From: Opitutus sp. | GTDB lineage: Bacteria > Verrucomicrobiota > Verrucomicrobiia > Opitutales > Opitutaceae | Assembly (NCBI GenBank): GCA_025361365.1 | Contig: JANYAM010000243.1 | Span: forward strand, 1-55,898 | Reading direction: 5' to 3' | DNA: 55,898 nucleotides | Shown: positions 9,997 through 28,164 of the stretch, one piece after another | Layout of the letters: each line of letters begins with the position of its first letter | Numbering within the stretch: position 1 is the stretch's first letter | Notes under the pieces: model-generated | Databases searched by the model: none | The model's input: only the letters and a program-made list of their open reading frames with translations | Told to the model about the DNA's origin: nothing | Program-made: the position numbers and the translations under genes

Positions 9997-10120
9997 AAAC
10001 TCCAAACTTCCAGAGCGCCAAACGCCAAAGAAATTCCAAATCCAGAAAATGACTTCCCGTGCCCCACTTTTTGAACCTTCCCGGCTTTATTTGGCCTTTG
10101 GAGTTTGGCCTTTGGAGTTT
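9997..10120. repeat. Inverted repeat between pyrB and pyrC (AAACTCCAAA type)
   Basis: AAACTCCAAA at 9997-10006 pairs with TTTGGAGTTT at 10111-10120. The right side has two tandem copies of a 14-nt unit, TTTGGCCTTTGGAG. The element starts right after the pyrB stop and ends 5 nt before the pyrC ATG, with no ORF inside. Confidence 0.75.
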
Positions 10121-14030: not shown

Positions 14031-14051
14031 TCGACCAAGACATTTTATGGC

Positions 14052-14148
14052 CACAAAGAGGCGCAAAAATGATTCTTACCTGGTGCCGGAAATATTCCGC
14101 GCGCCTTTAGCGTCATGTTTGCCCTCGTCTTCTTTGTGCCTTTTTGTG
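14052..14148. repeat. Empty iteron inverted repeat before tsaE
   Basis: The left arm has CACAAAG (14052) and CGCAAAA (14062), the right arm CTTTGTG (14132) and TTTTGTG (14142); both have 3-nt spacers (period 10). The extended ends TGGCCACAAAG and CTTTTTGTGGCCA mirror each other. The 60-nt centre holds no ORF. Confidence 0.75.
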
Positions 14149-14176
14149 GCCAAACCTCCTGCCTTGTCCGGGCTTC

Positions 14177-14611: not shown

Positions 14612-14691
14612 GGTCGCCGCTTGCGGCGGACCACGAGCGGAAGCGAACCTCGAAAGCGCAACGCGGTCCGCCGACAAGCGGCGACCCTACA
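14609..14691. repeat. TGTAGGGTCGCC palindromic element (copy 2)
   Basis: TAGGGTCGCCGCTTGCGG at the left is mirrored by CCGACAAGCGGCGACCCTA at the right. It supplies the tsaE stop codon and fills the convergent gap up to the terminator of the next minus-strand gene. Confidence 0.9.
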
Positions 14692-14718
14692 AAAAAGCCC
14701 GCTCTTGCGAGCGGGCTT
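14691..14718 (-). terminator. Rho-independent terminator of the 640-aa gene
   Basis: On the minus strand AAGCCCGCTC-GCAA-GAGCGGGCTT is a 10-bp stem with a GCAA tetraloop, followed by a T run. It begins 7 nt after the stop codon of the gene at 14725-16647. Confidence 0.9.
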
Positions 14719-25325: not shown

Positions 25326-25329
25326 TCGG

Positions 25330-25420
25330 TGGAGGGCCCACCTCCCGGTGGGCCGCGGCCCCACGACAGACTCGGGGCCTTGAGCTTGTCGAAACGGCTC
25401 AGCTGGAGCTGAGCCCTCCA
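25330..25420. repeat. TGGAGGGCCC palindromic repeat (copy 3)
   Basis: TGGAGGGCCCACCTCC at the left is answered by GGCTCAGCTGGAGCTGAGCCCTCCA at the right. The centre contains CCTTGAGCTTGTCGAAAC, a sequence that itself resembles a widely seen bacterial repeat (CCTTCGACAAGCTC type; from memory). Confidence 0.85.
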
Positions 25421-25425
25421 TTGTT

Positions 25426-25508
25426 TGTCATCCTGAGCGCAGCGAAGAATCCAGCGTATGTCCGCCGGCGTTCGTCATGCTGGATCCTTCGCTGCGCTCA
25501 GGATGACA
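25426..25508. repeat. TGTCATCCTGAGCGCAGCGA palindromic repeat
   Basis: An 83-bp inverted repeat: TGTCATCCTGAGCGCAGCGA at the left, TCGCTGCGCTCAGGATGACA at the right, and a second inner pair GAATCCAGC/GCTGGATCC. I recall this sequence as a very widely distributed intergenic repeat in several phyla, but cannot check that here. Confidence 0.9.
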
Positions 25509-25523
25509 GGTAGCGGGTAATTT

Positions 25524-25551
25524 TTGTGCCCTTTCGCGCCTTTTCGTGGCC
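25524..25551 (-). repeat. Unpaired iteron arm: TTTTTGTG-type cores, period 10
   Basis: TTTTTGTG, CTTTCGCG and TTTTCGTG follow one another with CC between them, then GGCCACC. This is the same style as the arms before cysS and tsaE. Confidence 0.65.
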
Positions 25552-25654
25552 ACCCCGCCTTGTGCCTTAGCCCGGCATTGACAGCCGGCGAAACTCCCCG
25601 CCAATCTGCGCGTTCGGCCCTGCAATCGTAGGCAGGACCACAACCAATACCGTT

Positions 25655-27586
25655 ATGTCGATGACACCGTTAGATGAAATCCGCCACTCGGCTTCGCACG
25701 TGCTGGCGACCGCGCTCCTCCGTCTTTACCCGGACGCCAAACTCGACATCGGTCCGCCGACGGACACCGGCTTCTATTACGATGTCGACCTCGCCCACAA
25801 GCTGACCCTCGAGGACCTCGCGAAGATCGAGGCGGAGATGAAGAAGGTCATCGACGAGAACCAGCCCTTCACCCGCAAGGAGGTCTCCCGCGAGGAGGCC
25901 GTGGAAATTATCAAGTCCCGCGGCCAGGAGCGCTTCAAGCTCGGTCGCCTCTCCGACATTCCCGCGGGCGAGAAGATCTCATTCTATACTAACGGCGAGT
26001 TCTCCGACCTCTGCGCCGGCACCCACGTCCGCTACACGAAACAGATCAAGGCCTTCAAGCTCCTGTCCATCGCCGGCGCCTACCACCGGGGCGACGAGAC
26101 CAAGCAGCAGCTGCAGCGCATCTACGGCACCGCCTTCCCCTCGAAGGACGAACTCACCAACTACCTGACTCAGCTCGAACAGGCCAAGCTCCGCGACCAC
26201 CGCAAGCTGGGCCGCGATCTCAAGCTGTTCCACATCGACGAGGACGTCGGCCAGGGCCTGATCCTCTGGACGCCCAACGGCTCGATCGTCCGCCAGGAGC
26301 TGCAGAACTTCATCGCGGGCGAATTGCGCAAGCAGGGCTACTCGCAGGTCTTCACGCCGCACATCGGCCGCCTGTCGCTCTACAAGACTTCCGGCCACTT
26401 CCCCTACTACAAGGACTCGCAGTTCCCGCCGGTCGTCGAGCGCGACTACCTCGATCAGCTCGTCTCCTCCGGCTGCTCCTGCGCCGAGATGTCGAACCGT
26501 ATCGAGGCCGTCTCTGCGCATCTGGCGGAGAAGGTCAACAAGCTCACCGGCAAGGAAACGATCACGAAGGACCGCGTCCTGCCCGACGACCAACTCATCG
26601 ACGGCTTCCTGCTGAAGCCGATGAACTGCCCGCACCACATCAAGATCTTCGCCTCGCAGCCGCACTCCTACCGCGATTTGCCCGTGCGCCTCGCGGAGTT
26701 CGGCACCGTCTACCGCTGGGAACAGTCCGGCGAGCTCAACGGTATGACCCGCGTTCGCGGCTTCACGCAAGACGACGCCCACCTCTTCTGCACCCCGGAG
26801 CAGGTCGGCCCCGAGATCATCGGTTGCCTTTCGCTCGTGAAGACCATCCTGACAACGCTTGGCATGTCCGACTACCGCGTGCGCGTCGGCCTGCGCGATC
26901 CCGACAGTAAGAAATTCGCCGGCGACCCCGAGAAATGGGATATGGCCGAGGCCGCGTGCCGCGAGGCCGCGAAGACGCTGGGCGTGCCTTTCACCGAGGA
27001 ACCCGGCGAAGCCGCCTTCTACGGCCCAAAGATCGACTTCGTCATCAAGGACGTCATCGGCCGCGAGTGGCAGCTAGGCACCGTGCAGGTGGACTACGTC
27101 CTCCCCGTGCGCTTCGACCTGACCTACATCGGCGCCGACAACGCCGCGCACCGCCCGGTGATGATCCACCGCGCGCCTTTCGGTTCGATGGAGCGATTCT
27201 GCGGCGTGCTCATCGAGCACTTCGGCGGCGACTTCCCGCTCTGGCTCGCGCCGGAGCAGGTCCGCCTCCTGCCCATCTCCGACAAAGTGATGGATTACGC
27301 GAAGACGATCTTCGACCAGTTCCTCGCCGCCGACCTGCGCGTCACGCTCGACAGCCACTCCGACAAACTCGGCGCCAAGATTCGGCGCGCCGAGCTGGAG
27401 AAGGTGCCCTACGTGCTCGTGCTCGGCCAGAAGGAGGCCGAGGCCCTCAGCGCCTCGGTCCGCTCCCGCGCCAAGGGGGACGAGGGCGTCCACCCGGTCG
27501 CCGACCTGCTCGCCCGCTTCAAGACGGAGGTCGTCACCCGCGCCCTGCCGGAGAAGAAGGCGCCTGTCGCGACCCCGAAGGCCTGA
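25655..27586 (+). CDS. thrS: Threonyl-tRNA synthetase lacking the TGS domain
   Basis: A 643-aa class II synthetase. It begins at once with the editing domain (HSASHVLATALLRLYP, HxxxH at residues 11-15; DLCAGTHV), so the usual 60-residue N-terminal TGS domain is missing. The catalytic domain has the zinc Cys in KPMNCPHH, motif 2 FRWEQSGE-like text (YRWEQSGELNGMTRVRGF) and HRAPFGSMERF near motif 3. Between SGHFPYYKDSQFPP and GFLLKPMNCPHH there is an insertion of roughly 45-50 residues (ERDYLDQLVSSGCSCAEMSN and onward) that E. coli ThrRS lacks. The C-terminal anticodon domain is normal and has a short Lys/Pro/Ala tail. Confidence 0.95.
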   Translation: MSMTPLDEIRHSASHVLATALLRLYPDAKLDIGPPTDTGFYYDVDLAHKLTLEDLAKIEAEMKKVIDENQPFTRKEVSREEAVEIIKSRGQERFKLGRLSDIPAGEKISFYTNGEFSDLCAGTHVRYTKQIKAFKLLSIAGAYHRGDETKQQLQRIYGTAFPSKDELTNYLTQLEQAKLRDHRKLGRDLKLFHIDEDVGQGLILWTPNGSIVRQELQNFIAGELRKQGYSQVFTPHIGRLSLYKTSGHFPYYKDSQFPPVVERDYLDQLVSSGCSCAEMSNRIEAVSAHLAEKVNKLTGKETITKDRVLPDDQLIDGFLLKPMNCPHHIKIFASQPHSYRDLPVRLAEFGTVYRWEQSGELNGMTRVRGFTQDDAHLFCTPEQVGPEIIGCLSLVKTILTTLGMSDYRVRVGLRDPDSKKFAGDPEKWDMAEAACREAAKTLGVPFTEEPGEAAFYGPKIDFVIKDVIGREWQLGTVQVDYVLPVRFDLTYIGADNAAHRPVMIHRAPFGSMERFCGVLIEHFGGDFPLWLAPEQVRLLPISDKVMDYAKTIFDQFLAADLRVTLDSHSDKLGAKIRRAELEKVPYVLVLGQKEAEALSASVRSRAKGDEGVHPVADLLARFKTEVVTRALPEKKAPVATPKA

Positions 27587-27592
27587 AATTAA

Positions 27593-27652
27593 CGCAAAGA
27601 CGCCAAGGCGCGAAGAATCCCAACCCATTCTTTGTGCCTCTGCGCCTTTGCG
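27593..27652. repeat. Empty iteron inverted repeat between thrS and TPR gene
   Basis: The left arm is CGCAAAG-A-CGCCAAG-G-CGCGAAG (27593-27615); the right arm is CTTTGTG-C-CTCTGCG-C-CTTTGCG (27630-27652). Each has three 7-nt cores with 1-nt spacers (period 8), flanked by TTAA/TTAA. The centre is only 14 nt. The right arm ends 14 nt before the next ATG. Confidence 0.88.
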
Positions 27653-27666
27653 TTAAAACCTCCTCC

Positions 27667-28164
27667 ATGAGCGATTCCCTCGAACTCCCAGCCTGGAAAG
27701 AGGAACTCGATACCATCGTCGGCGCGCGGGCCCATGGCCAGGCCGAGGAGATCTTTCCCCGGCTGCAGAAACTCGACGCCCAGCAGCCGAACGTCGCCGA
27801 GATCAACTACCAGCTGGCGTGGACCTGCGACGTGCTCGACCGCGCGGCGGACGCCCTGCCCTATTACGAGAAGGCCGTCGCCCTCGGCCTGCCGCCCAAC
27901 GAACTCTCCGGCGCGCTGATCGGGCTCGGCTCGACGCTGCGGATGCTCGGCCAGCTTGAGCGCTCGGCCGAGGTGCTGCGTTCCGGCCAGGTGCAATTTC
28001 CTGACAACCCGGAGTTCGCCGTCTTTCTCGCGCTGACCCTGCACACGCAGGGCAAGGCCGCCGACGCCCTGCGGCTGGCGCTCCACACGCTTTGCGAGAC
28101 GACCGACGACCCCGGCCTCACCGGCTACCAGCGCGCCATCCGCCACGCGGCTGCGAAGCTGTAG
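27667..28164 (+). CDS. Tetratricopeptide-repeat protein
   Basis: A 165-aa soluble protein made of about three to four TPR-like helix pairs (for example VAEINYQLAWTCDVLDRAADALPYYEKAVALGLP and GALIGLGSTLRMLGQLERSAEVLRSGQVQFPDN). No signal peptide or enzymatic motif. It is a small scaffold-type protein with unknown partner, read in the same direction as thrS with a short repeat between. Its TAG stop is part of the TGTAGGGTCGCC half element, as for tsaE. Confidence 0.85.
   Translation: MSDSLELPAWKEELDTIVGARAHGQAEEIFPRLQKLDAQQPNVAEINYQLAWTCDVLDRAADALPYYEKAVALGLPPNELSGALIGLGSTLRMLGQLERSAEVLRSGQVQFPDNPEFAVFLALTLHTQGKAADALRLALHTLCETTDDPGLTGYQRAIRHAAAKL

Follow-up and report, generated by a model that had tools for sequence, protein, structure and literature searches.

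The thrS-TPR spacer of an Opitutus genome contains a 68-base hairpin at positions 27589 to 27656. The hairpin probably belongs, as a copy that lacks an ORF, to a family of small mobile elements with a stem-loop build, the full members of which carry a GxxExxY gene. Positions refer to the window, which is the whole stretch of 55,898 nucleotides that was analyzed. Elements of this family have a common build, their arms match within an element, they are dispersed in the genome, they are present in some relatives and absent from others at a gapless gene junction, and their arms co-vary with the subtype of the encoded protein.

An ORF-less pair of arms after thrS

The hairpin occupies nearly the whole spacer between the stop codon of thrS (25655-27586) and the ATG of the TPR gene at 27667, and the spacer has no room for an ORF. 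It consists of a 30-nucleotide inverted repeat (27589-27618 and 27627-27656) whose arms are identical at 25 of 30 positions. Each arm comprises three cores of the CGCAAAG type separated by 1-nucleotide spacers, which gives tandem units of about 8 nucleotides. The left arm reads TTAACGCAAAG-A-CGCCAAG-G-CGCGAAG-AAT, and the opposing arm reads TTAACGCAAAG-G-CGCAGAG-G-CACAAAG-AAT. The complete arms are 8 nucleotides apart and the innermost cores 14, and no strand is assigned to the element. Its inverted-repeat score of 17.5 is equalled by none of 1000 dinucleotide shuffles of the spacer, among which the maximum is 9.5. An earlier note on this DNA had described 27593-27652 as three inverted, gene-flanking cores per arm with 14 nucleotides between them, a description that holds.

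Across the window, the plain 8-mer GCGCAAAG occurs no more often than expected (4 matches versus 5.0). An Rfam scan of the window found two tRNAs and nothing else, and the hairpin corresponds to no known RNA family in that scan. It is also distinct from the intervening sequences (IVSs) that carry S23 genes, as it lies between thrS and the TPR gene rather than within 23S rRNA and contains no S23 ORF. Its inverted arms of tandem units have the build of the GxxExxY stem-loops, in which two or three units of 8 to 10 nucleotides form each arm. Moreover, its class of core and spacer is the same as that of GxxExxY cassettes in its own genome (C202, locus L017) and in three related genomes (G001, L342; G003, L341; G008, L354). 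We read the hairpin as an ORF-less member of this element family.

Most GxxExxY genes lie between matched arms

The window itself contains a GxxExxY cassette at 2030-2455 on the forward strand. Its arms, at about 2030-2056 and 2427-2455, each have three CACGAAG units with a period of 9, and they enclose a gene at 2057-2428 on the same strand, which is assigned to the PD-(D/E)XK nuclease superfamily (PF13366; Pfam E-value 5.3e-41). A weaker, possible pair of period 7, with CCAAACG units and no assigned strand, is located at 10018-10101. Its score is attained by 5 of 1000 shuffles, and it is also called by our tandem-arm detector, which has a false-positive rate of about one per shuffled window.

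For each gene, the highest-scoring inverted repeat that pairs its left with its right flank was taken as the measure of its arms, with a threshold of 13. There are 12 PF13366 genes in the genome, and 11 of them have a flanking inverted repeat above this threshold. The units differ among these copies and include CGCTAAT, ACAGAAT, CACGAAT and CGCAAAG, among others, in addition to the CACGAAG of the window cassette. When 80 named loci from at least 14 phyla are added to the 12, matched tandem-unit arms are found at 67 of 92 loci and at none of 92 shuffled flank pairs; the other 25 loci have no repeat above the threshold. A cross-locus control that pairs the left flank of one locus with the right flank of another is exceeded at its 95th percentile by 61 of the 92 loci and at its maximum by 25, and this control is inflated because unrelated loci have CACAGAG-like cores in common. 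Within the genus, 78 of the 84 genes examined, from 115 PF13366 matches in 21 genomes, pass the threshold, as opposed to 0 of 84 after shuffling (a first pass covered 63 genes, after the removal of repeats and of 22 that lacked a motif). One gene, at locus L078 2852-3431 (C17:22848-23431), has a whole hairpin pair on each side instead of a single arm on each side.

The period of the units in the 67 armed loci is 9 in 29, 8 in 23, 10 in 6 and ambiguous in 9. On a tree of the proteins, which is built from few columns and leaves many forks open, arm period and core both switch less often than under shuffling (4 and 8 of 500 shuffles, respectively, were as low; for the named loci alone, 14 and 3 of 500). 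One locus with an in-frame stop inside the match, L186, was kept when flanks were counted, with stops coded as X for the tree.

Perhaps the GxxExxY gene is only a passenger, and the arms spread by replication slippage or by recombination between short repeats. Tandem arrays of arms in contigs C275 and C202 are of a kind that slippage or unequal exchange could make. However, matched arms flank the gene across many phyla, and gene subtype and arms change together, and we therefore regard this explanation as rather unlikely.

Partner genes and gene-less copies

The earlier note had predicted a separate GxxExxY paralogue flanked by CGCAAAG cores with 1-nucleotide spacers, and such a gene exists both in the same genome and in three congeners. 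In the former it lies at C202:1351-1704; the left arm closest to it is degenerate, and more CGCAAAG arms occur further upstream. G001, G003 and G008 each have a GxxExxY gene with arms of this class. In G003, which has a single GxxExxY gene, the string TCACGC ends both that cassette and the ORF-less pair in the thrS spacer.

The pattern CGCAAAGNCGCNAAG, with at most one mismatch, has 131 matches in the genome compared with 11 for the reversed pattern, and many of them are closely spaced inverted pairs. The tandem-arm detector yields dozens of partly redundant rows, in which the units measure 7, 8, 9 or 10 nucleotides, on genomic stretches that are a non-random sample selected by pattern matches. 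The excess of CGCAAAG arrays over the reversed control is 120 in this genome and 29, 51 and 19 in G001, G003 and G008; among the other 17 genomes it is at most 16, except in G012, where it is 30. The four genomes with a partner gene thus rank within the five richest of 21 (Mann-Whitney p = 0.0024, a value that ignores relatedness and includes the cassette arms among the array matches). For G004, G007, G009, G015, G019 and G020, the assignment to the group lacking a partner is based on part of their GxxExxY genes. G012 has CGCAAAG-type arms at none of its 11 examined GxxExxY genes despite its 30 excess matches. Similarly, G006 has a period-8 pair and 11 excess matches, yet its assembly, which is 86% complete, has no GxxExxY match. 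A stretch at L061 2379-4152 (C275:16878-18651) contains a large number of CGCAAAG arms that alternate in orientation, with spacers that are themselves repeated, and recalls mosaic REP arrays.

Miniature inverted-repeat transposable elements (MITEs) are short, non-autonomous and dispersed; their inverted ends are also those of a transposon, and target duplications usually accompany them. The ORF-less pairs are likewise short, non-autonomous and dispersed, with inverted ends; they differ in that neither ends shared with a transposon nor target duplications are established for them. The earlier note likened the pairs to the miniature derivatives of autonomous elements, and in the sense of internal deletions this is not supported. 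We compared ten centers (nine from pairs of the period-8 type and one from the 14052 pair described below) with the 12 GxxExxY loci of the genome, and the sole match was that of one center to its own locus. The 8-nucleotide center of 27589-27656 is too short for this comparison.

The CCACAAA class

A second ORF-less pair, of the CCACAAA class, is located at 14048-14152, between tsaE and an AIRS-domain gene that we take to be ThiL-like. Its arms (14048-14067 and 14133-14152) each have two units with a 3-nucleotide spacer, no strand is assigned, and the center of about 60 nucleotides is a decayed form of the palindrome GCGCCTATAGGCGC. The score of 15 is not equalled in 1000 shuffles (maximum 12). 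The earlier note had described 14052-14148 as a similar element with a center of about 60 nucleotides and no ORF. Elements of this kind, about 100 nucleotides long and centered on GCGCCTATAGGCGC, form a dispersed family in the genome. In congener G012, an intact palindromic center is present at the equivalent junction. Elsewhere in the window, a stretch of about 28 to 30 nucleotides at 14661-14696 has dozens of matches in G010, G011, G012 and G017 and is probably a REP family.

It is possible that the CCACAAA class is a separate miniature family that has its own enzyme and has converged on the arms of GxxExxY elements. The palindrome occurs in 15 copies in this genome, in 10 of 20 congeners, in 2 of 16 other members of the family and in none of 20 other members of the order, against a reversed control of 0 matches save for 2, 1 and 1 in three genomes. 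Arms of the form CCACRAAR are present on both sides of all 10 copies inspected in this genome. Furthermore, such arms are absent from all 12 of its GxxExxY genes and from all 11 examined in G012, which has 14 copies of the palindrome. Against this, G010, G011 and G017 have GxxExxY genes flanked by CCACAAAA-type arms and also have the palindrome, in 5, 16 and 8 copies, and we consider a separate family quite unlikely. The partner that had been proposed for CACAAAG cores with 3-nucleotide spacers is missing among the 12 genes of this genome, and the arms in these three genomes are near matches to the CCACAAA class with other spacing. The class may represent a GxxExxY satellite that has lost its driver, or it may have a different driver; membership of the 14052 type in the GxxExxY family is less settled than that of the pair after thrS.

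Insertion at a gapless gene junction

The window cassette lies at the junction of a ResB-like gene and a cytochrome c assembly (CcsA-like) gene. The same junction is empty in G001, G003, G006 and G011, where the two genes overlap at ATGA. Where it is occupied by a GxxExxY gene, three subtypes are found, which are at most 55% identical to one another. The first, in G000 and G008, has proteins that are 66% identical and CACGAAG arms; the second, in G018 and G009, has 88% identity and CGCGGAG arms; and the third, in G012 and G019, has 89% identity and CACCAAG/CGCAAAG arms. A copy in G004 is 79% to 80% identical to the second subtype and adjoins the same upstream gene; its repeat is slightly below the threshold and its downstream flank is unaligned. 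ORF-less period-7 pairs occupy the junction in G014, G010 and G017, and G016 has other repeats. The empty and occupied states and the subtype-specific arms indicate that elements enter the junction, and that the arms track the type of gene and not the site.

Stop codons also lie within elements at this junction. In G000 and G008 the TAA stop codon of the upstream gene falls inside the end of the element, and the arm contains a TAG in all three genomes with a period-7 pair. Inspection of these junctions by eye revealed no target duplication, and the spacers there are too diverged to align.

Turnover of the spacer after thrS

Stretches around thrS were taken from 18 congeners and two other members of the family, picked by the thrS gene and not by arms. 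In the resulting 20 stretches (352 kb), the detector finds 16 pairs, 6 of them in the thrS spacer, versus 1 after shuffling. The repeats in this spacer include period-8, period-9 and period-7 kinds, and those of G014 and G015 look like REPs on inspection by eye. G012, the nearest relative by ThrRS (97%), carries a period-7 type there, with flanks that are 94% and 88% identical.

An inverted repeat follows thrS at P ≤ 0.04 in 13 of 19 genomes, this one included. By a cruder extraction, the thrS spacer has such a repeat in 5 of 13 cases, which is comparable to some other spacers (5/8, 0/13, 1/8, 6/15, 4/13, 0/4 and 0/6). The counts thus depend on the extraction, and we make no claim of a hot spot after thrS. 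The spacer ahead of thrS (25326-25654) also has an inverted repeat, which contains TGTCATCCTGAGCGCAGCGAAGAATCC, and a similar string occurs at the ResB junction of G016. G018 and G017 (L098 and L100) have a post-thrS element in common, in which a single position has undergone a paired change, with G in the two arms of one copy and A in the two arms of the other.

Alternatively, the paired arms could be host hairpins, such as terminators or mRNA stabilizers, that are maintained by selection and whose loops were entered later by GxxExxY genes. The location of pairs directly after stop codons, the frequency of repeats after thrS and the paired change in G017 and G018 would fit such a role. In contrast, the same site in close relatives has unrelated repeats or none, and arms follow the gene subtype. 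By eye, the stem also has no trailing run of T residues, and GxxExxY genes of other phyla are bordered by identical core heptamers. We judge host hairpins to be an unlikely explanation.

S23 genes and other intergenic repeats

Genes encoding S23/IVP four-helix proteins (PF05635) are found in a parallel arrangement, between inverted arms of 7-nucleotide tandem units. All six such loci in the genome (L088-L093) pass the arm threshold, as do 19 of 30 loci of the phylum (L224-L253, scored out of a longer list), compared with 0 of 6 and 1 of 30 for shuffled flanks. The period is 7 in 22 of the 25 passing loci, and the pooled autocorrelation for the phylum reaches 0.61 for a lag of 7 and 0.54 for a lag of 14, versus 0.23 to 0.31 for other lags. 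In Coxiella, an IVS with three tandem heptamers ahead of its S23 ORF has been termed a selfish element (PMC4990558). The IVSs described in that text share with the present elements an inverted-repeat stem, a small ORF in the loop and heptamers before the ORF; they differ in lying within rRNA, from which they are excised by RNase III, whereas the elements here lie between protein genes and those with a period of 8 to 10 carry GxxExxY rather than S23.

Heptamer repeats of the sequence GGGAATC in Xanthomonas (PMC4692102) also occur in arrays, which frequently form inverted pairs and lie in spacers close to the neighboring ORF. They are treated there as quadruplex-forming repeats, and the main text of that report has no mention of S23; we infer that they are related to the period-7 elements.

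Another close comparison is with REPINs, which are mobilized by RAYTs, a class of Y1 tyrosine transposase, and it could be asked whether the pairs are simply REPINs. The genome has seven Y1_Tnp matches and true REP-like hairpins, and the overall logic, with an inverted pair and copies without an ORF, is alike. However, the inverted repeats that flank six of the seven Y1 loci look by eye like ordinary REP hairpins, and the autocorrelation of the Y1 flanks is flat (0.24 to 0.29 at lags 7 to 11). A strict detector finds tandem-unit arms at none of the seven Y1 genes, apart from one GC-rich match distant from the gene (L082). Membership in a RAYT/REPIN system was rejected, with no arms in common with any of the seven loci, and the pairs are most improbably REPINs. 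As described by Bertels and Rainey (2011; PMC3116915), REPINs resemble the present elements in having inverted pairs in spacers without an ORF, an association of each dialect with a gene family, and occasional tandem clusters. REPs are nevertheless single palindromic units served by an HUH tyrosine transposase, whereas the elements here have tandem-array arms and a PD-(D/E)XK-type nuclease. The GTAG and CGTC REPs and TIRtrons (PMC3733652) are likewise families of intergenic palindromes, some with genes between long terminal inverted repeats; they are based on tyrosine transposases, and the portions of that text considered here do not describe three-unit arms.

The GxxExxY protein and a proposed mechanism

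An AlphaFold2 model of the GxxExxY protein from the window (pLDDT 95) fits a PD-(D/E)XK fold. In an alignment, D67 and K79 are invariant and E77 is nearly so, which is consistent with that fold. The best structural matches are to SSO0001, which is presumably Cas4-like, and to the LHK and lambda exonucleases, with a weaker match to the homing endonuclease I-Bth0305I; none is below an E-value of 0.001. A search of PDB sequences with a 12-row GxxExxY profile found no matches up to an E-value of 0.1. In open-licence PMC texts, we found no role for GxxExxY (PF13366), whose mentions there are incidental by title, no mention of PDDEXK_3, and no arm strings apart from those in a rat study. A wider search of the same texts found nothing on such elements among the matches listed.

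A full element comprises two inverted arms, each of two or three tandem units of 8 to 10 nucleotides, with one GxxExxY gene in the loop. A common unit is CRCNRAG followed by 1 to 3 nucleotides. We propose that the nuclease may read the arm units, which might then be in cruciform or single-stranded form, and could start copying of the stem-loop into gene junctions. Under this model, a gene would mobilize its own cassette in cis and ORF-less pairs with the same units in trans; the pair after thrS would be mobilized by a gene of the C202 type. Junctions of adjacent genes would be a tolerated or preferred target.

Implications

The GxxExxY and S23 elements might together constitute a minimal mobile-element superfamily present in many phyla, a proposal that we consider evenly balanced. 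Its members would have inverted ends of tandem units and a sole gene, which would encode GxxExxY where the units are 8 to 10 nucleotides long and an S23 four-helix protein where they are 7. The protein would set the period and the dialect, and each dialect would have a swarm of ORF-less copies. Insertion at overlaps of stop and start codons would rewire operon junctions, with the element providing a new stop codon.

If a stem-loop mobile element has GxxExxY as its sole gene, in the way that IVSs have S23, then this protein family gains a role, and many unexplained intergenic hairpins would be linked to named proteins. Arms vary between elements yet match within one; their units may serve the protein as a recognition code. 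In genome annotation, pairs of this kind account for fast-changing spacers and shifted stop codons within operons.
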